DNA from: Dehalogenimonas etheniformans
GTDB lineage: Bacteria > Chloroflexota > Dehalococcoidia > Dehalococcoidales > Dehalococcoidaceae
Assembly (NCBI RefSeq): GCF_014672715.2
Contig: NZ_CP058566.2
Location: 434,001 to 498,000 of the forward strand
Reading direction: 5' to 3'
Length of the DNA: 64,000 bases
Under the pieces are notes generated by a model. The model saw nothing but the letters and a program-made list of their open reading frames with translations, did not search any database and had not been told where the DNA came from. A program made the translations under genes and the position numbers. Below are positions 5,738 through 34,500 of the stretch, in pieces (positions within the stretch are counted from its first letter, which is position 1; every line of letters starts with the position of its first letter).

Positions 5738-7864
5738 TTAGATGAACAGGGGGACGAGGACCAGGGTGATGGTGGACAGGAGCTTAATCAGGACGTGCAG
5801 GGAAGGTCCGGCGGTGTCCTTCAGGGGATCGCCGACGGTGTCGCCGACGACAGCAGCGGCATGAGCGAAGGTGCGCTTGCCCTGGACGACGCCCTTGTCA
5901 TCCTTGAGCTGTCCGTCTTCGATGTATTTTTTAGCATTGTCCCAGGCGCCGCCGGCGTTGTTCATGAAGGCGGCCATCATGATGCCGCCGATGGTGCCGA
6001 CCATCAGCATAGCGCCGACAGCCTGGGCGGCGTCATATTCCGGGATGAGGTTGAAACCGACACCCAGGGCCAGCGGGACGATCACCGGCAAAACGCCGGG
6101 CTTGATCATGCCGCGGAGGCCGGCGCGGGCGGTGATATCGACAGCGCGGGCGTAGTCCGGCTTGGCTTCCCAGGTCATGATCTTGGGATTCTCGCGGAAC
6201 TGTCGGCGGACTTCCTCGATGATCTTCTGGGCTGCGGCGCCGACAGCCTGGATAGCCCAGGCGCTGAACAGGAAGACCAGCATGACGGCGATCAGGCCGC
6301 CGACGAAGACCTCGGGGCGGGCCAGGTTGATAGCTTCAAAAGGCGTGCCGCGCAGGAACGAGACCTGGTCCATGTAAGCCTGGAACAGGAGGAAGGCGGC
6401 AAGACCGGCGGAGACCAGGGCGTAGCCCTTGGTCAGGGCCTTGGTAGTGTTGCCGACGGCGTCGAGGCGGTCGGTGATTTTCCGGACCTGGGGTCCGGCG
6501 CCGGCCATCTCGTTGATGCCGTTGGCGTTATCGGTGATGGGGCCGAAGGTATCCATGGCCAGGACGTAGGGGCAGGTCATCAGCATGCCCATGGTGGCGA
6601 CAGCAGTGCCGAAGGCGCCGGCGCCTTCAACTCCGGAAGCCTTGCCGAAGGCATAGGCGACCAGCAGGGCGATGCCGATGACGGCGGTGGTGGGGAAGGC
6701 GGTCTCGAAACCGATGCCGATACCGCCGACGATGTTGGTGGCGGAACCGGTGCGGGAGGCCTGGGCCAGGTCTTTAACCGGCTTATACTTGGTATCGGTG
6801 TAGTACTGGGTGATGTAGAGGATGGCGACCGAGGCGCCGATGCCGACGAGGCCAGCGGCGGCCAGCCAGGCGTTGCCCAGCATGATGGATACGGTGATGA
6901 CCATACCGACGGCGGACAGGATGATGGACACCCAGTAGCCGCGGTTCAAAGCGGCCATGGGGTCTTCTTCTTCCTTGGCCTTGACGATAAGCAGGCCGAT
7001 CATGCTGGCGACCAGGCCGAAGGCGCGGACGACCAGCGGGAAGATGATCCAGGCGACGTCCTGGGTGATGGCGTAGACGGTGGCGCCCAGGATCATGGCG
7101 CCGATGTTTTCAGCGGCGGTGGACTCGAAGAGGTCGGCACCGCGGCCGGCGCAGTCACCGACGTTGTCGCCGACCAGGTCAGCGATGACGGCGGCATTGC
7201 GGGCGTCGTCTTCAGGAATGCCGGCTTCAACCTTGCCGACGAGGTCGGCGCCCATGTCAGCGGCCTTGGTATAGATACCGCCGCCAAGTTGGGCGAAGAG
7301 GGCGACGAACGATGCGCCGAAGCCGAAGCCGACGATCAAATGGGGGGCGATTTCCGGGGTGTCGGCACCGCCGAAGGCGAAGAAGATGGCGGTAACGCCG
7401 ATGAGCGACAGGGTGGTGATGAGGAAGCCGGAAACGGCGCCGCCGCGCATGGCGACGTCGATGGCTTCACGCCAGCTCCTCTGGGCGGCCGCGGCGCAGC
7501 GGACGTTGGATTTGACGGCGATGTACATGCCGGCAAAGCCGGAGATGCCGGAGGCGATGGCGCCGGCCAGGAAGGCGACGCCGGTGCGCCACATGATGCC
7601 GAATTGTCCGACATTACCGGGGGTGGTGTCGCCGGACAGGAGGCCGACAACGACCCCGACGACTACGGCAGTGATGACCGCCAGCATAGCGATGGTGCGG
7701 TACTGGCGGTTGAGGAACGCCCAGGCGCCCTCGAAAATCATGTCCCCAACTTCTTTCATCTTGGGGGTTCCGGTGTCCTTGGCCAGGACGTAACGGGCCA
7801 GGTAGATAATGAACAGCACGGTTACTAGGCAGATCACGGGTACGATCCAGAAGATACCAGGCAT
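5738..7864 (-). CDS. hppA: Membrane proton-pumping pyrophosphatase
   Basis: 708 residues, normal family length, with about 16 hydrophobic segments. The substrate site is clear: GADLVGKVEAGIPEDDARN and DLVGDNVGDCAGRGADLF carry the acidic clusters that bind Mg-pyrophosphate. It hydrolyses PPi and pumps ions across the membrane. The motif GNTTKALTKG has lysine where K+-dependent enzymes have alanine, which points to the K+-independent, H+-pumping class. An AAGGAGGAG ribosome site lies just before ATG 7864. PPi from biosynthesis would add to the proton gradient, useful in an organism living on low-energy reductive dehalogenation. Confidence 0.97.
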   Translation of the reverse strand: MPGIFWIVPVICLVTVLFIIYLARYVLAKDTGTPKMKEVGDMIFEGAWAFLNRQYRTIAMLAVITAVVVGVVVGLLSGDTTPGNVGQFGIMWRTGVAFLAGAIASGISGFAGMYIAVKSNVRCAAAAQRSWREAIDVAMRGGAVSGFLITTLSLIGVTAIFFAFGGADTPEIAPHLIVGFGFGASFVALFAQLGGGIYTKAADMGADLVGKVEAGIPEDDARNAAVIADLVGDNVGDCAGRGADLFESTAAENIGAMILGATVYAITQDVAWIIFPLVVRAFGLVASMIGLLIVKAKEEEDPMAALNRGYWVSIILSAVGMVITVSIMLGNAWLAAAGLVGIGASVAILYITQYYTDTKYKPVKDLAQASRTGSATNIVGGIGIGFETAFPTTAVIGIALLVAYAFGKASGVEGAGAFGTAVATMGMLMTCPYVLAMDTFGPITDNANGINEMAGAGPQVRKITDRLDAVGNTTKALTKGYALVSAGLAAFLLFQAYMDQVSFLRGTPFEAINLARPEVFVGGLIAVMLVFLFSAWAIQAVGAAAQKIIEEVRRQFRENPKIMTWEAKPDYARAVDITARAGLRGMIKPGVLPVIVPLALGVGFNLIPEYDAAQAVGAMLMVGTIGGIMMAAFMNNAGGAWDNAKKYIEDGQLKDDKGVVQGKRTFAHAAAVVGDTVGDPLKDTAGPSLHVLIKLLSTITLVLVPLFI

Positions 7865-23727: not shown

Positions 23728-23853
23728 TTATGTCAGCGCCACCAGCTTGTTGACTATCACCACCAGCACCATGATCGCACCGAGAGTAACTAGAGAAATT
23801 ACTAAGATGTTTGCAAAGGTTCTGGGTTTTTTGTCATTTTGCGTTTCGGCCAT
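23728..23853 (-). CDS. Small single-span membrane protein next to rdhC
   Basis: 41 residues: a charged N-terminus (MAETQNDKKPRT) then one hydrophobic helix (ILVISLVTLGAIMVLVVIV). It overlaps the 3' end of rdhC by 52 bp in another frame and has an AAAGGA site 11 nt upstream. Translational coupling and the single span suggest a small subunit or anchor for the RdhC-like protein. It is much shorter than RdhB (about 90 residues, three spans), so I do not call it rdhB. Confidence 0.5.
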   Translation of the reverse strand: MAETQNDKKPRTFANILVISLVTLGAIMVLVVIVNKLVALT

Positions 23854-25034
23854 ATTCCAAGGAGTCCTTTCCGAACTTTGAGAACAATTTCCATGACGGC
23901 GCCGACTGGACACAGGTAATGGCACCAGAAATTATAGATAAACATTGATGCTGTTAAAGCGAAAATCATCAACACCCACTGATCTGCTGTGCCTCTTAAG
24001 CTGAACAAAACGTTCCAAGGTTCAAAAACCGATACAGATGGGGTTTTAAGCGCCAAAACCAGGAACAGGGCGACAAATAAAAGGACATAACGAGTGTTAT
24101 GCAAAATCTTGAACAATTTTGGGTTTGGATGAACGCTAGCGCCAAAGGCTAAATGAAATAACTCCTGAACTGCCACATAAGGACACAACCAGAAGCAGTA
24201 GTAGTTTTTACCCAAGATAACTGCCAGACCAATAACACCGAAAACCATAACATAGATGATAAAAAAGGTTTGAATGTGGGGCGAATAACCTACGAGCCAT
24301 GAGGCAATGTTGGTTAGAGACAGCGGTACCGACAACCAAAGCCCGACCACCACGAAACCATAGGTAAGAGTAAGGACGCGCGGCCAACTGTGTTTCCGTA
24401 ATTTTGGCAGAGTTCTGGCGAGTACTACCGCAAACAAGCCAAGAAATAAGCCAATATCTGGAAGTCCGATTTGAATGGGTTCGGCGGGACCAGTATAAGG
24501 GTTCCCCAGATAATCAGCTAAAACGAAGCGCCCACTACGTACCCCGATTGCCACACCATTTGAGGAGACCGTGGATCCGGTGGCCGCATCGACATCGGAA
24601 GAAATTTGCAGGGGTTCGCTATAAGAGCGCCCGATGTATTGTTTGAAAAAGCCTGTCTTACCAAGAACTTTCCACCAGGGTAAGTCTTCGTGGTGTTGGG
24701 GTACGGTAACCGATGTGATCACACCGCTGGCAGTCCAGCCAACCATCACTGTCATCGGACCGCCATAGCCAGGGCTGGTGGCTCCAGTAATCAGACCTAA
24801 GGTCTTGCCGGAGTTATCTTTTGCATCATATAGAATGGTATCTGCTGACGTCTGTAATACGGTAAATGTTTTGGCCCCTGGAATGACCCCCGGGAGAAAA
24901 CGTTCATAGCCGGATAACCCCCGGCTTAGCTGCCCGTAAAATCCTGCACTGATGAGGGCAATGACTGCACCTGCAACGAGTAATTTCTTGCCATGTTGCA
25001 ACCAGAAACTCTTCCGAGAAGGAGGGTTATCCAA
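23802..25034 (-). CDS. rdhC: RdhC/NosR-like membrane FMN-binding protein
   Basis: 410 residues. After one N-terminal helix comes a periplasmic FMN-binding domain with VDAATGSTVSS, where a threonine would bind FMN covalently. Then about five helices with two CxxxCP motifs (CFWLCPYVA and CHYLCPVGA), as in PceC/NosR/VprC proteins that pass electrons across the membrane. In organohalide respirers these genes sit in rdh operons; here no rdhA is adjacent, the nearest being over 4.8 kb away. The start appears to be TTG 25034. It ends in a 41-residue membrane protein gene that overlaps it. Confidence 0.88.
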   Translation of the reverse strand: MDNPPSRKSFWLQHGKKLLVAGAVIALISAGFYGQLSRGLSGYERFLPGVIPGAKTFTVLQTSADTILYDAKDNSGKTLGLITGATSPGYGGPMTVMVGWTASGVITSVTVPQHHEDLPWWKVLGKTGFFKQYIGRSYSEPLQISSDVDAATGSTVSSNGVAIGVRSGRFVLADYLGNPYTGPAEPIQIGLPDIGLFLGLFAVVLARTLPKLRKHSWPRVLTLTYGFVVVGLWLSVPLSLTNIASWLVGYSPHIQTFFIIYVMVFGVIGLAVILGKNYYCFWLCPYVAVQELFHLAFGASVHPNPKLFKILHNTRYVLLFVALFLVLALKTPSVSVFEPWNVLFSLRGTADQWVLMIFALTASMFIYNFWCHYLCPVGAVMEIVLKVRKGLLGIWPKRKMTKNPEPLQTS

Positions 25035-25574: not shown

Positions 25575-26264
25575 TTACACAGAATGGGGAGGCGTTACAG
25601 TATATCCTATCCCGCGATGATTAAGAATAATCTTGGGGAGGTCTGAATCATACTCTATTTTTTTTCGTAACCGGCAGATATAATTTTTTATATTATCTGA
25701 GGTCTCTGGAACTGATTCACCCCAAAGTATCTCAGCGAGTTCGTTTTTTGTAACCACTTTGCCTGCTTTTTGTATTAAATGGTAAAAGAGCCTTCCTTCG
25801 AAAGACGTCAGCATTATTTTTTTTGATCTTACAAATAGTTCATTAATAGAAGCGCCAAAATGAATGTCGCCACAAGTTATTGTTAAATCCTCCCCATTTA
25901 ACGTTCGTTTCTTTAAACACGCCTTTATTCTCGCTATTAATTCCATTTGTCTGAATGGTTTGATAAGATAATCGTTTGCGTCTAATTGAAAAGCTTTGAC
26001 CAAAGCCGTTTCTTCTGCGCGTACAGTAATAATAATAACGGGGATACTTGAAAATAGCCGTATCTGCCGTAGAACATCGTAACCATCTAGATCGGGTAGC
26101 CCAAGATCCAATAATATTATATCGGGAGATTGGGTTTCTACTAATTCTATGCCCTTCCGGCCTTGTGGTGTCGATATGACCTTAATATCAGCCCAGACAA
26201 GGCGTAGAACGCAATTAAGCGTATCAACAATATTTGGGTCATCTTCAATGATTAGGATCTTCAT
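25575..26264 (-). CDS. OmpR/KdpE-type response regulator
   Basis: 229 residues. The receiver has IIEDDPN, phospho-aspartate in IILLDLGLPDLDG, threonine in IIIT and lysine in YLIKPF; the winged-helix output (about 130-225) includes LTSFEGRLFYHLIQKAGKVVTKNELAEILWG. It starts 2 bp before... the end of the DUF1638-PAS kinase gene, so it is that kinase's partner and likely a DNA-binding activator. Candidate targets are the nearby rdhA2-rdhB or rdhC genes. Confidence 0.93.
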   Translation of the reverse strand: MKILIIEDDPNIVDTLNCVLRLVWADIKVISTPQGRKGIELVETQSPDIILLDLGLPDLDGYDVLRQIRLFSSIPVIIITVRAEETALVKAFQLDANDYLIKPFRQMELIARIKACLKKRTLNGEDLTITCGDIHFGASINELFVRSKKIMLTSFEGRLFYHLIQKAGKVVTKNELAEILWGESVPETSDNIKNYICRLRKKIEYDSDLPKIILNHRGIGYTVTPPHSV

Positions 26265-26266
26265 TC

Positions 26267-28033
26267 TTATTTTACTATCAGAGCATTACTGATAATGGGT
26301 AAAGTAAAATATAATGCAAAACCATTATTTTCCTGGCTTACGACCCAGATTTTACCCCCATGTAGTTGGATGATTGACTTAGCGAGTGATAATCCAATAC
26401 CTAAACCACTTGATAAATGGTTGCGTGCAGATTTGTAGGGTTGAAATATATCTTGATGTTTTTGTTGAGGGATACCCAGCCCATTATCTTTTATACTAAA
26501 AATTAATTTTTTTTCTAAAAGACTGGTTTCTATTGCTATTTCGGAATCGATGCCCGAATATTTTATGGCATTGTCCAATAAATTCATTATCACTTGTTTT
26601 ATGCGCTGTTTATCGCCGACTACATTAATATAATTGTTAGAAAGGTTTGTCTTAATGATTTGCCCATTCTTTTCTGCAGCTGATTTAAAATATTTTACTG
26701 CCTCTCCAATTGTCTTGTTTAAGTCGAATGGTTCTATCTTAAGGGTTAAGACCCCTGCCTCACCTCGAGCAAGATCTAATAACTCCTCTATCCTGCCGCT
26801 CAAGTCATCCACGCCGCGATGGATACAGTTTATCAATGGAAGCATTTCTTTCCCACTTCGGTGGTTTACCAGGGCATCAGATGCTAAAATTATTGGTGTC
26901 AATGGGGTTTTCAATTCATGTACTAGTGCATGAGTAAACTCTATTCTATTCTTGAGTTCTCTTTCAAGGGCGGCTCGATATTTCATCTCTTTTTGATACA
27001 TTATGGCCAATTTATCTTCTGTACGTTTTCTTTCCGTAATATTCTCCAATTTTCCCAAAAAGAAGGCATTTACTGCACCATATTTTGTGTATTTAGGAAA
27101 GATGCTCTCTTTTATCCAAATGTAGCTACCGCTCTTGTTTTTAATTTTGTACTCCATGGTTAAAGGAAGTTGAATTCCTTGCGTTAAACACCGAGAAATA
27201 TACGTAAAGCGTTGTTGCGTAATCTTTTGAAATACATCCTTGTCAGGATACATAATATTGTCGGGATCAGAATGATATAATTCGCAGAATCTACTTTGGT
27301 GAAAACCAATAAAATCATAAATACTTGGGCTCACAAATGCTAGTTTATTTTGAAATATATCGATTTGAAATTCTACTTCATTAGTATTACGAATTGATTT
27401 AATTTCTCTTTTATCGGTGTTGTCAATTTGAGTACTAATGATACTTTTGGACTGCGAATTTGCAGTATTAATACCGTTTAACAAAAGTTGTTTAAATTCA
27501 TTCAGATTGCAATCAACAATATCATATGGAACATGAAATTCTTCCGCAAAAGAAGCAACCTCCGAATCGAGTGGCTTATCCTTCTCGAATCTGCAAGCAA
27601 CGATTTTATCGGTATGACAATAATTTACGATATTGTAATTCGGCGAATATGCGCCATAAGATATAAATGTCTCGTTACGCCAGGTATTGCATAGTGCATT
27701 CCTCAGTAACCAACAACCATTTTTTATATAACTGATAGCCTTCTGTTTGCCCAGCAACATCTCCCAGCAATTATCGCCTTCAAGTTTAGAAACGCGCCCA
27801 GAATAATCTTCAAGAATTTTAGGAATTTCAGAATGACAGTATCCATATGCAATTAAAGTCATCTTGTTTTCTAAACATGATTGATCAAACACATGTCTAA
27901 TTAGTTCAGGTGACACATTGAAGAGACAGGCAGGAACGAGTGGGTATATTTTATATTCATATTGGTTGCCAAGACTCTGTTTAACGTGGTTGAGTATAAA
28001 AGCACAACTTATTATTCCGATGCGGTCATTCAT
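26267..28033 (-). CDS. Histidine kinase with DUF1638-like sensor and PAS domain
   Basis: 588 residues. The N-terminal 195 residues resemble DUF1638 (IAYGYCHSEIPKILEDY, LEGDNCWEMLLG, with many cysteines), a domain otherwise found beside corrinoid methyltransferases. Then PAS (about 220-335), HisKA with the histidine in LVHELKTPLTPI, and HATPase (LLDNAIKYSG, DNGLGI, GLGIGLSLAK). No membrane helix, so it senses in the cytoplasm. It overlaps the upstream B12-domain-like gene by 4 bp. The suggestion that it reads corrinoid or methyl/halo-alkyl status is inference from domain origin. Confidence 0.82.
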   Translation of the reverse strand: MNDRIGIISCAFILNHVKQSLGNQYEYKIYPLVPACLFNVSPELIRHVFDQSCLENKMTLIAYGYCHSEIPKILEDYSGRVSKLEGDNCWEMLLGKQKAISYIKNGCWLLRNALCNTWRNETFISYGAYSPNYNIVNYCHTDKIVACRFEKDKPLDSEVASFAEEFHVPYDIVDCNLNEFKQLLLNGINTANSQSKSIISTQIDNTDKREIKSIRNTNEVEFQIDIFQNKLAFVSPSIYDFIGFHQSRFCELYHSDPDNIMYPDKDVFQKITQQRFTYISRCLTQGIQLPLTMEYKIKNKSGSYIWIKESIFPKYTKYGAVNAFFLGKLENITERKRTEDKLAIMYQKEMKYRAALERELKNRIEFTHALVHELKTPLTPIILASDALVNHRSGKEMLPLINCIHRGVDDLSGRIEELLDLARGEAGVLTLKIEPFDLNKTIGEAVKYFKSAAEKNGQIIKTNLSNNYINVVGDKQRIKQVIMNLLDNAIKYSGIDSEIAIETSLLEKKLIFSIKDNGLGIPQQKHQDIFQPYKSARNHLSSGLGIGLSLAKSIIQLHGGKIWVVSQENNGFALYFTLPIISNALIVK

Positions 28034-28620
28034 TGTACATCTACTCCTAGTGAATCGATCAAATTGGGCAAATCCTGAGGGAAAATAAAACCCGGCAATT
28101 TATCAGCCAATGTGGGCTTCAAAGTGAATACTATTCCTCCAGCATAATAACGAGTGTTAATTAATTCCAATTCAGGAATCCTTTTTTGTATCAGATCAAC
28201 GTAACAAAATGTGGAAAAACTAAATATAACCGCGGGCGAATTAGTTAAGTTTAATTCTTTGATTAACGTATCAATATCGACATCAGAATTGATATTTATT
28301 AGTGTTGTTTCAAGCATGCGTGTTTTGAGAAAAACCTGGGTCAAGAAAGCACCCATTGTGAGAACAGGAGAAAAGTAACATATTAGGATAGGCTTCTTGT
28401 TAGTTGCGGTAACCATGGCACTGTTTAATCGCTTGTTAATCGCATCAACGATTATAAAAAGGTGATACGGAATTAGCGATTTATTTTGCCAAGTTTCAAT
28501 AGCCATATCTAAAAGTGATCGTAACTCTAATAGCGTATACGTCTCATTTTCAGGGAGATCTTCGACTAATCTTGAAAAAGGCTCGGCCAAAGAGTTGTTA
28601 GTATTTGCTAGATCAAACAT
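28030..28620 (-). CDS. Corrinoid-protein-like (degenerate B12-binding fold)
   Basis: 196 residues. An N-terminal helical part (about 20-75) is followed by a Rossmann-like part: KPILICYFSPVLTMGAFLTQ, ETTLININSDVD, NSPAVIFSFSTF and RYYAGGIVF. These follow the strand-helix order of MtaC/MtbC-type cobalamin proteins, including the late GG turn, but DxHxxG is replaced (SPVLTMG), so histidine coordination of cobalt is not expected. First gene of an operon with the DUF1638 kinase and the regulator. It is probably a sensory partner. The family call is by eye and moderate. Confidence 0.55.
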   Translation of the reverse strand: MFDLANTNNSLAEPFSRLVEDLPENETYTLLELRSLLDMAIETWQNKSLIPYHLFIIVDAINKRLNSAMVTATNKKPILICYFSPVLTMGAFLTQVFLKTRMLETTLININSDVDIDTLIKELNLTNSPAVIFSFSTFCYVDLIQKRIPELELINTRYYAGGIVFTLKPTLADKLPGFIFPQDLPNLIDSLGVDVQ

Positions 28621-28853
28621 AAACTCTCGTCTGAAAAACTAAACTGAGTTGGATTATAATCCCTGGCACTAACAGGAGCAAGTATTTGAATTCATAATTG
28701 GCTAGCTATAATCGCTTAACTCAGTGTCGTTGTACCTATGAATGATACGAAATGCAAGGAATAATTGGAATTAAGAAAGCTGGAATGCACCCCGTTTTAA
28801 CTGGACAGATGTATAAGCTATAGTCAGGCCACTGGAAAGGTGGCCAAAGTGGC

Positions 28854-29057
28854 ATGAATCGGAGAATCTGATCCACCGAGGAAAAGGTAGCTATTGTTCT
28901 AGAGATGGCCAAGGGGGAGGACCCTGAAGAGGCCGTCTGCGCGCGACATAGAGTAAGCGCCACCCATGCCTATCGCTAGCAGGAGCAGTTCTTGGCCGGC
29001 GTCCGCGCCGCCCTGGCTGACAAGCGCATCAAAGAGATTTCAGAACCGAGTGCTTGA
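28854..29057 (+). pseudogene. Decayed transposase N-terminal part
   Basis: The frame reads MNRRI-stop-STEEKVAIVLEMAKGED, then PEEAVCARHRVSATHAYR-stop-QEQFLAGVRAALADKR and ends at 29055-29057. The helix-turn-helix of IS3/IS66-type OrfA proteins is recognisable, but two internal stops disable it. No orfB follows. The rest of the 28621-29368 gap shows no gene; it probably holds promoters for the 28620 operon and for the 29369 transporter. Confidence 0.7.
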
Positions 29058-29368
29058 ATGAAAGCTGGTTTTATCCTTGGATAATGCCACACAGAGAGGT
29101 GAAACCTGGAAAGATGAGTAAAGCAGGTGCCGGTCAGGTAGATCTTTGGGAGCATTCTACCAGTTGAGTTTGCCAGTTGGCGGAACTAATAATCGGAAAA
29201 CATCCTTTTATAACTGCGCCAAAGACGGAGTTACAAAAATAAAGACTAAACAAAGAATAATTATTAACCTATCCATTTCGGTTGTGTGGGGCATATCCGT
29301 AATGTATAATCCAGACTATTAAAGCATTATATCCATTTGGACAGAATTATGCATAATATTGATGTCAT

Positions 29369-30310
29369 ATGAAGTTATTGTGGGACATTTTGGTGCATCA
29401 GGATAATTATCCACTTGTTATCGCTATTATCGCTGGGTTTTTATTAGCACCTTTAGCAACATACACCCAGCCATTCATCGTACCATTTCTTGTCATAACC
29501 TTAACATTATCTATTAGTAATGTGGACTTATCCAAATTGGTTTTAAAATCATTGGTTAAGCCTATCACAATGGCACTTTTCCTTAACTTCATCGTCCTCG
29601 GCGGTGCGATTGTTCTATTCGGGCATTTGTTTACTGACGACTACAACTTGAGGGCCGGTTTTTTGGTACTTGCTGTTGCTCCCGCTTCGTTAGCAATACC
29701 ATTATTCACACATAAATTGAAGGGAAACTCCTTCTATTCTTTCGTGGGAATAGCAAGCTGTTTTTTAGCCTCAATAATTTTACTCCCATTAATTATCAAG
29801 GCTAGATTTGGGAATGAGATAGATTCCAGAGATCTTCTCATTACGCTAGGACAATTAATTGTCCTACCATTGATTCTCTCTCAGTTGCGTTATTTAAGTA
29901 ATATTTGGAAGCGGACCGAAAGTTACCATCGACAGATTATTAATTGGTGCATCGCAATTATATGTTTTTCCATGATTGGTATTAATAGGGATATGATATT
30001 CACCTTTCCCAAATACGTGGTTGCCCCTTTCCTTGTTGCAGTAATAACAACATTTGGCTTGGGGTACCTTATACTAACTTTCGGTAAAAAGTTATTGATT
30101 AATGAATCCAGTATTGTCAGCATGGTGCTATTAGGTACTATGAAAAAATGGGCTTTGGCTAGTGTAATAGCTTTTAAATTATTCGAACCTATAGCTACGT
30201 TACCTGCGGTGTTTGGGATTGTGATAGGATTTATATTCTTTATCTGGCTTAATATTCGAAAAGCATGGGTAGAACAATACAATAAAATCCAGACACCCGG
30301 GTTAAAATAA
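29369..30310 (+). CDS. BASS-like (bile acid:Na+ symporter superfamily) permease
   Basis: 313 residues with about ten hydrophobic helices (for example IIAGFLLAPLATY, FIVPFLVITLTLS, FLVLAVAPASLAIPLF). The repeated inverted layout and the LLGTMKKWALAS segment in the second half resemble BASS/arsenite-permease-fold transporters, although the Na+-site motifs are weak. The substrate may be an organic anion. AT-rich and divergent from the transposase remnant and rdhAB. Its stop codon lies within the terminator stem. Confidence 0.65.
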   Translation: MKLLWDILVHQDNYPLVIAIIAGFLLAPLATYTQPFIVPFLVITLTLSISNVDLSKLVLKSLVKPITMALFLNFIVLGGAIVLFGHLFTDDYNLRAGFLVLAVAPASLAIPLFTHKLKGNSFYSFVGIASCFLASIILLPLIIKARFGNEIDSRDLLITLGQLIVLPLILSQLRYLSNIWKRTESYHRQIINWCIAIICFSMIGINRDMIFTFPKYVVAPFLVAVITTFGLGYLILTFGKKLLINESSIVSMVLLGTMKKWALASVIAFKLFEPIATLPAVFGIVIGFIFFIWLNIRKAWVEQYNKIQTPGLK

Positions 30311-30345: not shown

Positions 30346-30624
30346 CTAATCTGATGTTCTTTTACGCCGCGATATCGAATTGTAAAGAGAATAGGCAACG
30401 AGCATTGCGATTACACCAAAGAATACAGCGGCAATCCATGTACCAGATGACACCCTCTCAATCGCAAAATCGAATGTGAGAAGAGTGCCGAACCCAATCC
30501 ACACTAGTAACATCACAATCGTTAAGTAATGCCACCAAGAAACATAGAACCTTTTATTAACCACATATAGTCCAGCCGCAACTGAAACAAGAATCATTCC
30601 GCCGAGGAATAATATTGCACTCAT
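30346..30624 (-). CDS. rdhB: Reductive dehalogenase membrane anchor
   Basis: 92 residues with three hydrophobic helices (ILFLGGMILVSVAAGLYVV, WHYLTIVMLLVWIGFG, WIAAVFFGVIAMLVAY) and a basic C-terminus, the normal RdhB form. It lies 27 bp downstream of rdhA2, with AAAGGGGAG before its ATG. It tethers the exported RdhA to the outer face of the membrane. This is the only rdhB in the window. Confidence 0.93.
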   Translation of the reverse strand: MSAILFLGGMILVSVAAGLYVVNKRFYVSWWHYLTIVMLLVWIGFGTLLTFDFAIERVSSGTWIAAVFFGVIAMLVAYSLYNSISRRKRTSD

Positions 30625-30651: not shown

Positions 30652-32097
30652 CTAAGCTCTCCATGGAGCCCATTCATCGCTTGAATGCCATGGTTGCCAT
30701 GGCGGAGCATCTTTTCCTCTGGGGTACTCCCCATAACTCATCTCTGCTATTTTTACCATGGCAGGTGCTAAAGCCGGTATGCTAGCAAAAAAACGGCCAA
30801 AATCATGCGCAGGTGTATTTGGAGCGCTCCAGGGGCACACGCTAACGCAAAATTGGCAGCCATAAGAAGTCCTTTGTTGCATGCATTTTAGCCCGTCGTA
30901 TTCCCACTTATATGACCCGTTTATCAAAGTTGGTTCAGCATCGTTACCGATTACTTGGGCGACACAGTTCTTCGAGCATCTTCCACAGACCTTACAGAAT
31001 TCTAGAAGACCAAAATCTATGGGTTTATCAGGCATTAAGGGGGCATTTGTCACAACGATTACGGTACGCAAGCCAGCCCCCCAAGGAGCAATCGCTAAAC
31101 CAATGCGGCCTGCTTCAGCTAGGCCTGCCCGGACGGCAAAGGGTGTTTCACAACAATCTTCATCGGCAATGATCATGCCATAGGCTTCATAACCTAAGCC
31201 CCGGATAGTCGATTCCATATATTTCGCAAAAACATCTTGATCACTGCACGTCGTTGCTGTTGAAGCATTAGCAAGAGGTCCAACGCCAGCTCTGTGTGTT
31301 GGCAAACTAACGAAGATACTCATTACGATGGCATATTTATAAGGGTATGGCCAAGCAACTGGTCTGCCTGGGTCGACCCAACCTTTTGGTCGATAACCGC
31401 GTAACGTACCGGAGGTGGCAGCTATTTTGTAGAAAAATGGCTTCATCTTGTCATCAATTGCACAGACCCGAGCTTGATCTACCCCAAACCAATGTGCAAC
31501 ATTTTTTAACTTGATTGTCATTTCTTCGGCGCTCAACTCGACCTTTGTTGCCGCGACGGGTAGCTTGATCCAGTTATTTTCGGACGTGTTTACGTGCCAA
31601 TGATCTGAAGCCATCACCATGGCTGTTCCAAATCGATAGTCATACATTTGATCTGGGGTTAATGTGGCTAACCATTTGTTTTTATTGTCAACAGCATCTT
31701 TGGCAATTTGTCCCCATTCCCCTGTCCAATCCTGATTTGTCACGGCGTTACCAACAGCTTGAAAACCGTCTTGTCGTCCATCAGTAAACGCCTGATATTT
31801 GCCATAAATCTTGGTTGCCCCCAAAACAAGTTCAGATGGCACTATTTCCGTTGTCCCTAAGGAGTTGGGAGTATCATCGATTTCCTTGACCCACCAAGGG
31901 TAATCGGATGGGTATTGCGGAAGGTATGGGTCCTTAAGCCTGCTGCCAATCATGTCTTGATTGCTACCTGGAACCTCTGTCATTGCTGTCGTTGTGGCAA
32001 ATACCGCACCAGCTATTCCTGCCCCACCCGCAATTTTTAAAAAATCTCTGCGACTGAAAGACTTCTGCCTTTCATTTAGCTTTTCCTTGACGAGCAT
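30652..32097 (-). CDS. rdhA: Reductive dehalogenase catalytic subunit, copy 2
   Basis: 481 residues from ATG 32097, which has a GGAAGGAA site; ATG 32121 upstream is less likely. TAT motif FSRRDFLK. First cluster CKVCGRCSKNC (about 368-378), lacking the usual proline after the fourth cysteine; second CMQQRTSYGC followed by QFCVSVCP (about 405-422). The only rdhA here that is paired with rdhB. It is clearly a different subfamily from copies 1 and 3 (no APVFHDLDE, tryptophan-rich C-terminus). It may be served by the DUF1638 kinase operon nearby. Substrate unknown. Confidence 0.96.
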   Translation of the reverse strand: MLVKEKLNERQKSFSRRDFLKIAGGAGIAGAVFATTTAMTEVPGSNQDMIGSRLKDPYLPQYPSDYPWWVKEIDDTPNSLGTTEIVPSELVLGATKIYGKYQAFTDGRQDGFQAVGNAVTNQDWTGEWGQIAKDAVDNKNKWLATLTPDQMYDYRFGTAMVMASDHWHVNTSENNWIKLPVAATKVELSAEEMTIKLKNVAHWFGVDQARVCAIDDKMKPFFYKIAATSGTLRGYRPKGWVDPGRPVAWPYPYKYAIVMSIFVSLPTHRAGVGPLANASTATTCSDQDVFAKYMESTIRGLGYEAYGMIIADEDCCETPFAVRAGLAEAGRIGLAIAPWGAGLRTVIVVTNAPLMPDKPIDFGLLEFCKVCGRCSKNCVAQVIGNDAEPTLINGSYKWEYDGLKCMQQRTSYGCQFCVSVCPWSAPNTPAHDFGRFFASIPALAPAMVKIAEMSYGEYPRGKDAPPWQPWHSSDEWAPWRA

Positions 32098-32180
32098 TTT
32101 ATTGTTCCTTCCATTATTCATTAACTAGATGTACCCCTTGAATTTCTCTGGTCCTATCCAAACGTGCGTATCATTTGTAC

Positions 32181-32434: not shown

Positions 32435-32698
32435 TCAAACCAGAAAATATTCCCAGGCCATGAACACAATCTGCGATGAATGGTTGCATTTCCCTTCAGG
32501 TAAGAGATTGAGGAACTTCACCGTATCACTTGAAGCTCCATCGAGTTTCGCTTGATGGACCAACTCAAGGTTGTTGATCGGGTAGGTCATGTCTCTGGCG
32601 CAGGCTTCGATATCACCAAAACTCAGGTCCGTAAATTTAACCGCTTTCGTAATATTTCCACTTACGTCCCCCTTTTGTCTCGCCAGTAGCATTGTCAT
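32435..32698 (-). CDS. DUF2795-like small protein after RNR
   Basis: 87 residues from ATG 32698 (AGGAGA site upstream). The stretch TYPINNLELVHQAKLDGASS with the following LLPEG matches DUF2795 (small helical domain, typically YPaskeeLvehAxxxGA...LPdrxY). It overlaps the RNR stop by 4 bp, so it is coupled to it. A second member sits immediately upstream of the RNR. Function unknown. Confidence 0.7.
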   Translation of the reverse strand: MTMLLARQKGDVSGNITKAVKFTDLSFGDIEACARDMTYPINNLELVHQAKLDGASSDTVKFLNLLPEGKCNHSSQIVFMAWEYFLV

Positions 32699-34500
32699 AT
32701 CGCTGCTCTCCTCTCTTTCTCTGCATCGAACCAACAATCTACCAGTTGAATTCCGGTTTCACTCATGCTCAAAGGCTGCAAATCCCGGCTCCTATCCCTG
32801 TAAACAGTGATTCCTTTGAGACCTTGTTCAAAAGCCATGTTGAACACTCGCGCAATATCATCTCTGGTGGCGTTTTTGGGGAAATTGACTGTTTTTGATA
32901 CGGCGCTATCAGTATGTCGCTGAAAGGCGGCCTGAATCCGCACGTGCCAGTCAGGAGTAACCCTATGGGCGGTAACGAAGATCTTCCTGACATCCTCTGG
33001 GATCTCGGTACGGCTGTGGAGGTGATTATTAGTCACTAGCTGCTCTATGAGCTCTTGGGTGAAGAAACCCCTGGCTTTAGCCACCTCTTCGAAGTAGGGG
33101 TTGATCTCAAGCAGGTTCTCTCCGTCTAAAATGTTCCGGACGAAAACCGAAGCGAAGATCGGCTCTATGCCACTGGACACACCGGCGATGATCGAGAGAG
33201 TACCGGTGGGGGCAATGGTAGTGCAGCAGGCATTCCGCATAAGGATGTTGTGTCTGGCATAAAGGCTATCACCCCAGGCGGGGAAGTTACCGCGTTCCTT
33301 GGCTAATTGCTGGGAGGTTTCGTGGGCGGTGTCGGTGACAAACTCCATTAAACTCTCAGCCACGGCGATGGCTTTAGTGGAGTTGTAGGGGATACCCAGC
33401 CGCAAGAGCATATCGGCAAAACCCATGACCCCCAAGCCAATTTTCCTGGTGCGTTTGGTGGCACACTCTATTTCAGGTACTGGGAAACGGTTGATGTCAA
33501 TAACATTATCGAGAAATCTGACCGCTAGGGGTACGATATGTGCTAGCTTATCGAAGTCGATCTCTAGGCCATCACCCGAATCTTTCAACATTTTGACAAG
33601 GTTAATTGAACCGAGATTAGTCGATTCATAGGAGAGGAGAGACTGCTCACCACAACCGGTGATAGCCGAGAGTTGGCCAAGGCTGGGAGTTGGGTTGTCG
33701 CGGTTAATCCGGTCGATGAAAGCTAATCCTGGATCTCCGGTTCTCCATGCCTGATCCACAATCCGACCAAATACTTCCCTGGCTGAGAGCCAACGGGTAA
33801 TCTTATGGGTGTGGGGATCGATAAGCGGATAGTCACCATTAGCTTTCACCTGAGCCATAAAGTGATCGGAAACAGCAACCGAGTTGTAGAAGTTGGTAAG
33901 GGTATTGGGGTCAGCTTTAGCGATGACGAAATCAAGGATGTCCGGATGATCGACTGATAGGACCATCGAATTGCAGCCGCGCCTGACTCCCCCTTGGCGA
34001 ATATAGTCAGCCGAGCTTGAGAGGACATTCGCCAGGGCTACCGGACCGCCAGCTGCATATGGCCGCCCGTTTACACTGCTACCCTTTGGCCTAAGAGCCG
34101 AGAGGTCGAAACCGATGCCCCCGCCACTTTTATGAATGATGGCGGTGTGCTTAACTGTATCAAACGTCTCTTCAACCGAATCTGGCACAGGCAATACGAA
34201 ACAGGACGACAGTGTACCGGATCGTGTGCCAGCATTAAGTATGGTTGGTGAGTTCGGGAGAAATTCCATGGATGCCATCAGGTCGAAGAATTCGTTTTCT
34301 ATTGTTTGAACATTTGCAGCTGTATCGTAGAAGAGTTCGGCTCGGGTTACTGAGTGGGCAACTCTCCTGAACATCTCCTCCGAGGTTTCAGTGACTTCAC
34401 CTCGATTGTTTCGACGTAGATAACGTTTTTCCAATACCCTAAGAGCATTAGTAGAGAGATTCGGTTTAACTTTGCAGGCAGGTTCAAAGACTTCAAGCAT
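32695..34500 (-). CDS. nrdJ: Adenosylcobalamin-dependent (class II) ribonucleotide reductase
   Basis: 601 residues. It reduces ribonucleotides to deoxyribonucleotides with an adenosylcobalamin radical. The N-terminal LSSCFVLP carries the first redox cysteine and GCGEQSLLSYE the radical cysteine. Two oddities: the position expected as N-P-C is T-G-C, and the second redox cysteine of the ESCNLGSINL motif is threonine (ESTNLGSINL, checked in the DNA near 33610-33630). The zinc-finger C-terminus of long NrdJ is also absent. So it is either a divergent clade or has altered chemistry. Flanked tightly by two DUF2795 genes. Confidence 0.9.
   Translation of the reverse strand: MLEVFEPACKVKPNLSTNALRVLEKRYLRRNNRGEVTETSEEMFRRVAHSVTRAELFYDTAANVQTIENEFFDLMASMEFLPNSPTILNAGTRSGTLSSCFVLPVPDSVEETFDTVKHTAIIHKSGGGIGFDLSALRPKGSSVNGRPYAAGGPVALANVLSSSADYIRQGGVRRGCNSMVLSVDHPDILDFVIAKADPNTLTNFYNSVAVSDHFMAQVKANGDYPLIDPHTHKITRWLSAREVFGRIVDQAWRTGDPGLAFIDRINRDNPTPSLGQLSAITGCGEQSLLSYESTNLGSINLVKMLKDSGDGLEIDFDKLAHIVPLAVRFLDNVIDINRFPVPEIECATKRTRKIGLGVMGFADMLLRLGIPYNSTKAIAVAESLMEFVTDTAHETSQQLAKERGNFPAWGDSLYARHNILMRNACCTTIAPTGTLSIIAGVSSGIEPIFASVFVRNILDGENLLEINPYFEEVAKARGFFTQELIEQLVTNNHLHSRTEIPEDVRKIFVTAHRVTPDWHVRIQAAFQRHTDSAVSKTVNFPKNATRDDIARVFNMAFEQGLKGITVYRDRSRDLQPLSMSETGIQLVDCWFDAEKERRAAI

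Follow-up and report, generated by a model that had tools for sequence, protein, structure and literature searches.

Three adjoining genes on the minus strand of the window, the whole 64,000-nucleotide stretch of Dehalogenimonas etheniformans DNA that was analysed, most likely encode a cytoplasmic sensor that switches on the adjacent dehalogenase gene rdhA. They specify a small protein of 196 amino acids, for which the name CorL is coined here, a soluble histidine kinase with an N-terminal DUF1638 domain, and an OmpR-type response regulator. The best explanation of their gene anatomy, folds, residue conservation, recurrence, linkage to rdhA and co-variation, put at about an even chance of being right, is that the three genes form a signalling unit dedicated to the rdhAB operon beside them, in which CorL and DUF1638 sense together. 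In these bacteria, which respire chlorinated pollutants, it may set the timing of dehalogenase gene expression. The features are located in Table 1.

Table 1. The trio, its surroundings and URO-D genes of related operons (window coordinates unless a locus is named).
Feature	Position	Strand	Basis or remark
NosR/RdhC-like protein	23802-25034		FMN_bind, Fer4_5
OmpR-type response regulator, 229 aa	25575..26264	-	receiver and winged helix, D53 conserved
Sensor histidine kinase, soluble, DUF1638-PAS-HisKA-HATPase_c, 588 aa	26267..28033	-	ORF, Pfam
HATPase_c domain of kinase	26294..26617	-	Pfam
HisKA phospho-acceptor domain of kinase	26753..26947	-	Pfam; HELKTPLTP motif
PAS domain of kinase	27083..27337	-	PAS_3 1.4e-5, 25.7 bits, cut-off 25.6
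DUF1638 sensor domain of kinase	27449..28033	-	C10, C36, C66, C89 invariant
CorL, 196 aa	28030..28620	-	ORF, AF2 model, PDB fold matches, PF02310 in relatives
Rossmann (B12-binding) domain of CorL, about residues 70-194	28039..28413	-	
Intergenic region, presumed trio promoter	28621..29368		weak lead
SBF-family (sodium/bile acid symporter) transporter gene, between trio and rdhB	29369-30310	+	
rdhB, membrane anchor of likely target operon	30346..30624	-	position and length only
rdhA adjoining trio, DcpA-like, likely target gene	30652..32121	-	TIGR02486 7.8e-37
URO-D protein, L051	6400-7539		
URO-D protein, L052	4956-5999		
URO-D protein, L054	5861-6919		
URO-D protein, L094	1983-3032		

The sequence-only reading of this DNA had described three tightly coupled minus-strand genes, and open reading frames were found at exactly those positions, with recomputed spacings of a 4-bp overlap (ATGA) between the CorL and kinase genes and a 2-bp gap between the kinase and regulator genes. 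Its description of the kinase N-terminus as DUF1638-like and followed by PAS was borne out by Pfam, in which kinase residues 56-184 match DUF1638 (PF07796, E 6.7e-12, 46.0 bits against a cut-off of 27), followed by PAS_3 (233-317), HisKA (363-427) and HATPase_c (473-580); the regulator, called OmpR-type, has the Response_reg and Trans_reg_C domains. The setting between rdhC and rdhA-rdhB was likewise as described, although the rdhB product had no family match. With TIGR02486 the adjoining DcpA-like RdhA reaches 127.8 bits where the curated cut-off is 160.35, and PF13486 does not match it at 1e-3; automated annotation and counts of rdhA may therefore overlook it. A gene similar in length to the SBF-family transporter gene adjoins rdhA in locus L045, and the legend of the published dcpA-island figure lists a Na-bile cotransporter. 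Upstream of rdhA in the window is a ribonucleotide reductase large-chain gene (32695-34500), as in dcpA islands and in L037.

The small protein had been read as B12-binding-fold-like but lacking the DxHxxG lower-ligand motif, and both parts of that description hold. The AlphaFold model of CorL (pLDDT 84, from an alignment with 13 relatives) has an N-terminal helical cap at residues about 12-67 (helices 12-20, 30-45 and 51-67) and then an alternating Rossmann domain. Its best PDB folds by Foldseek and VIA-align are B12-binding proteins matched over residues 9-196 with Z of 12-14 (photocobilin 14.4, AerR 13.5, methionine synthase (MetH) 13.2, a Desulfitobacterium cobalamin protein 12.9, MtmC 12.3, MttC 12.2 and MtaC 12.1), CarH also being among the PDB matches. 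The expected similarity to PF02310 was found in seven of the 14 CorL family members (best 5.4e-6; in another scan, four of 14, best 3.1e-5) but not in the window's own CorL, which taken alone has no significant match in Pfam, PF02310 included, or in NCBIfam. The CorL family profile, as opposed to the single sequence, aligns with corrinoid proteins of the sister operons described below (hhalign 94.8%, E 5e-8), while searches of PDB sequences with the CorL and DUF1638 profiles gave chance-level matches only. By family profile and predicted structure, CorL is a B12-binding fold composed of cap and Rossmann parts. None of the 14 sequences contains DxHxxG, in place of which the window's CorL has FSPVLTMGA; GG (161-162), F165 and P181 are invariant among them. 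Having no cobalt-ligating histidine, CorL may bind no corrinoid.

If CorL does bind a salvaged cobamide, the trio could report corrinoid availability, the kinase withholding rdhA expression while the cofactor is lacking. Corrinoid auxotrophy prevails in Dehalogenimonas (PMC13390414), the GG loop and the cap are kept in CorL, and the B12-dependent regulators AerR, CarH and photocobilin are among its best structural matches; yet DxHxxG is gone from every copy, and one sensor would suffice where there are several diverged copies that track RdhA. This reading is judged decidedly unlikely. AerR, CarH/LitR and photocobilin share with CorL a regulatory cap and Rossmann B12 module, in a near whole-length structural match (Z 12-14), but they bind cobalamin, mostly to sense light, and need no kinase to act on DNA or partners, whereas the likeness of CorL to them is one of fold.

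DUF1638 is, to our knowledge, a family of no known function. The domain of the window's kinase is modelled with confidence (AF2, pLDDT 92.6), a fold search with it gave weak matches to two-lobed alpha/beta proteins (LacI/PurR and Asp/Glu racemase, Z 7-10), and all 17 kinase-type DUF1638 sensors match PF07796 at E 0.1 or better. C10, C66 and C89 are invariant in all 38 sequences compared, 17 of kinase type and 21 stand-alone. At the fourth ligand-type position all 17 kinases have Cys36, while stand-alone DUF1638 proteins have a histidine one column later, giving a set of four cysteines in the former against Cys-His-Cys-Cys in the 21 latter. In the AF2 model the four cysteines lie at or just past the ends of successive beta-strands, an arrangement that suggests a probable metal site. 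The two findings that could have overturned the sequence-only reading were the opposite of what emerged, DUF1638 being significant by Pfam and the small protein a B12-binding fold by family profile and structure.

The same cysteines, invariant in 17 of 17 kinase sensors and placed at or after successive strands of a confident model, could instead hold an iron-sulphur cluster or form a thiol switch, either of which would let the kinase respond to low potential or to oxygen, with CorL serving only as a structural or specificity partner. Soluble iron-sulphur kinases do exist, NreB being an example. Redox sensing has been raised as an option for kinases of this kind (PMC13390414, PMC7755780), but for a single cue the several diverged copies in a genome, every one with its own rdhA neighbour, would be redundant, and a strictly linked, fast-evolving B12-fold partner is left unexplained. 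It is considered possible though unlikely, and among candidate signals it is placed after an organohalide-dependent state of a corrinoid or metal centre, which is the most likely, and before cobamide supply.

The trio recurs. When 151 relatives were scanned with PF07796 and the loci read, intact CorL-kinase-regulator trios were found at 13 loci in nine genomes of Dehalogenimonas and Dehalococcoides, always in the same gene order and with overlapping or near-zero spacing; the window's own genome holds a second copy (L003) besides that of the window, and L045 is a further copy beyond the 13 tabulated, with an RdhA 100% identical to that of L044. At intact loci the nearest rdhA is 101-2871 bp away. 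In three of the 13, rdhA follows the trio codirectionally after 101-122 bp, and in five the two diverge from a shared intergenic region of 239-374 bp. A rough estimate of the chance that six distinct locus types would all lie less than 3 kb from rdhA is 1e-5 to 6e-4, and chance is excluded because the same trio recurs at 13 intact loci. These genomes are rich in rdhA, and the gene served by each trio is inferred from proximity.

Pairwise identities of CorL and of DUF1638 are correlated with r=0.90 in a set without near-duplicates; the two are, to judge from these identities, inherited together. Correlation with RdhA is 0.51 for CorL, 0.46 for DUF1638 and 0.26 for the kinase core, across nine loci of partly shared ancestry. 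The tight correlation of CorL with DUF1638, and the closer tracking of RdhA by both than by the kinase core, argue for a joint sensor that has a degree of substrate specificity. The trio might still be an ordinary rdhPS system in which the PAS domain senses the signal and DUF1638 and CorL are vestigial, since the kinase does possess PAS and the other rdhA-linked kinases of the trio genomes have no DUF1638 match. Vestigial parts would be lost or eroded, however, whereas the ligand-type residues of DUF1638 are invariant across very distant relatives and no intact locus lacks CorL, which also occurs in two other phyla; the idea is accordingly rated quite improbable. In one Dehalococcoides genome the DUF1638 kinase is broken into two reading frames (L041:5572-7413). 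In the genomes G004 and G007, CorL and DUF1638 genes without a kinase adjoin an rdhA-like gene (L049:5455-7754 and L050); their interpretation as a kinase-free variant was rejected, since the DUF1638 frame of L049 runs at its end into a transposase ORF, and both are read as truncated trios. A plasmid search returned only generic kinases.

Outside Dehalococcoidia, a CorL gene overlapping a DUF1638-PAS sensor gene was found in one Desulfobacterales and two Neomarinimicrobiota MAGs. The full kinase part is visible in one of them (L057), the other two loci ending or being masked before it, and these pairs carry other output domains, with a NarL-like regulator in one. The CorL-DUF1638 family is rare, occurring in one of 85 and two of 245 genomes in wider searches. 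No rdhA was found in the three MAGs by PF13486, a profile that detects 11 of 11 Dehalococcoidia genomes but misses DcpA-like RdhA; the presence of the pair in genomes without detectable rdhA suggests that an organohalide is not a necessary signal and that the range of the sensor extends beyond such compounds.

The likely ancestry of the trio is marked by operons of other Chloroflexota (L051, L052 and L054) in which a corrinoid protein, a URO-D methyltransferase and a DUF1638 histidine kinase are encoded together; L094 shows the same operon start, its sequence ending within DUF1638. The corrinoid proteins of the three complete operons have a B12 domain and keep DxHxxG as DYHALG or DYHFLG; the DYHALG form goes with PF02607 and PF02310. 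As in the trio, a corrinoid-fold protein stands beside a DUF1638 histidine kinase (the DUF1638 gene of L094 being incomplete), but here DxHxxG is kept, a URO-D protein is present and no link to rdhA was seen. These operons strengthen the earlier proposal that components of corrinoid methyl transfer were built into a signalling system. The URO-D proteins of all four loci have HLAS or HVAS where MtaA has HIC; HxC is the zinc motif of MtaA, and this usual motif may be missing from them.

The joint sensor is proposed because DUF1638 proteins are associated with corrinoid proteins in methyl transfer that depends on B12. In Phaeobacter, B12-dependent methionine synthesis requires a DUF1638 gene, and the split methionine synthase set there, like the trio, encodes B12-fold and DUF1638 proteins together (PMC5764234). 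Compared with such MtbC/MttC-type sets, the trio has its DUF1638 fused to a kinase, a CorL without DxHxxG and no adjoining methyltransferase gene (PMC5764234). In the favoured mechanism, the degenerate corrinoid protein CorL would contact the kinase's DUF1638, and a metal centre on the four cysteines would read the state of a ligand that CorL presents, either a corrinoid or a compound derived from one; most likely the substrate organohalide of the neighbouring RdhA would alter that state. The kinase would then phosphorylate the OmpR-type regulator, which would activate rdhAB and probably the trio too. It is plausible, as originally suggested, that the trio responds to corrinoid, methyl or halo-alkyl compounds. 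A more direct version is a long shot: a corrinoid on CorL would itself react with the substrate as the cofactor of RdhA does, and the product state (an alkyl group or an oxidised corrinoid) would pass to the Cys4 metal centre, alkylation or oxidation of which would switch the kinase, an Ada-like device assembled from methyltransferase parts.

Several of the trios lie, or probably lie, at loci of dehalogenase genes with an assigned function, of which Dehalogenimonas has three, dcpA, tdrA and cerA (PMC13390414). The window's RdhA is 77.5-80.5% identical to those of the dcpA-type loci L043-L045. By its coordinates L045 belongs to the dcpA island published for D. formicexedens NSZ-14 (1,384,297-1,407,259), and its rdhA measures 1,449 bp, as does the published dcpA (PMC13390414). 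L037 is adjoined by IS21-like genes, which fits the tdrA locus of strain WBC-2, and is probably that locus. The RdhA of L003 is 85% identical, and L003 is probably the cerA locus if the genome is that of D. etheniformans GP; these strain names are inferred. The trio is found in the published dcpA island and probably at tdrA and cerA, beside dehalogenases relevant to clean-up.

Not all of this is undescribed, as the sequence-only reading had proposed. Two-component systems beside rdhA (rdhPS), soluble kinases included, are well known in Dehalococcoidia (PMC13390414, PMC7755780), and those of Dehalococcoides and Dehalogenimonas resemble the trio in having a soluble histidine kinase and an OmpR-type regulator beside rdhAB; the published system of the NSZ-14 dcpA island is L045 by coordinates, and those of tdrA and cerA are probably L037 and L003. 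As far as the literature searched shows, the new elements are the DUF1638 sensor domain, the gene for its B12-fold partner and the conserved set of three genes, none of which is mentioned there for rdhPS. Mentions of DUF1638 are rare, and the accessible passages on it do not concern kinases. A search for kinases with corrinoid or B12-binding sensing found none in the literature within reach, some subscription papers lying beyond it. PceS/PceP of Sulfurospirillum is another two-component control of organohalide respiration, but its kinase PceS is membrane-bound, with seven transmembrane helices, and has a different sensor (PMC7755780). Two papers describe it as an open question whether the soluble kinases of Dehalococcoidia read organohalides directly or redox state (PMC7755780, PMC13390414); named sensor parts turn this question into tests on small soluble proteins, and DUF1638 would gain a second role.

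When a shared operator was sought in the regions upstream of the trio and of rdhA at dcpA-type loci, no common repeat and no clear operator emerged. Upstream of the trio in two sister loci there is a direct repeat with a 10-bp period, TGGTACATAGTGGTAC in L043 (about 7793-7808, minus strand) and TTGGTACATATTGGTAC in L044 (about 6397-6414, plus strand; TTGGTACATATTGGTA); it is kept only in part in the presumed trio promoter of the window and is a weak lead to a possible regulator site. A second OmpR-type regulator without a kinase of its own is encoded between the trio and rdhB in L003 (13388-14074), and likewise in L037.
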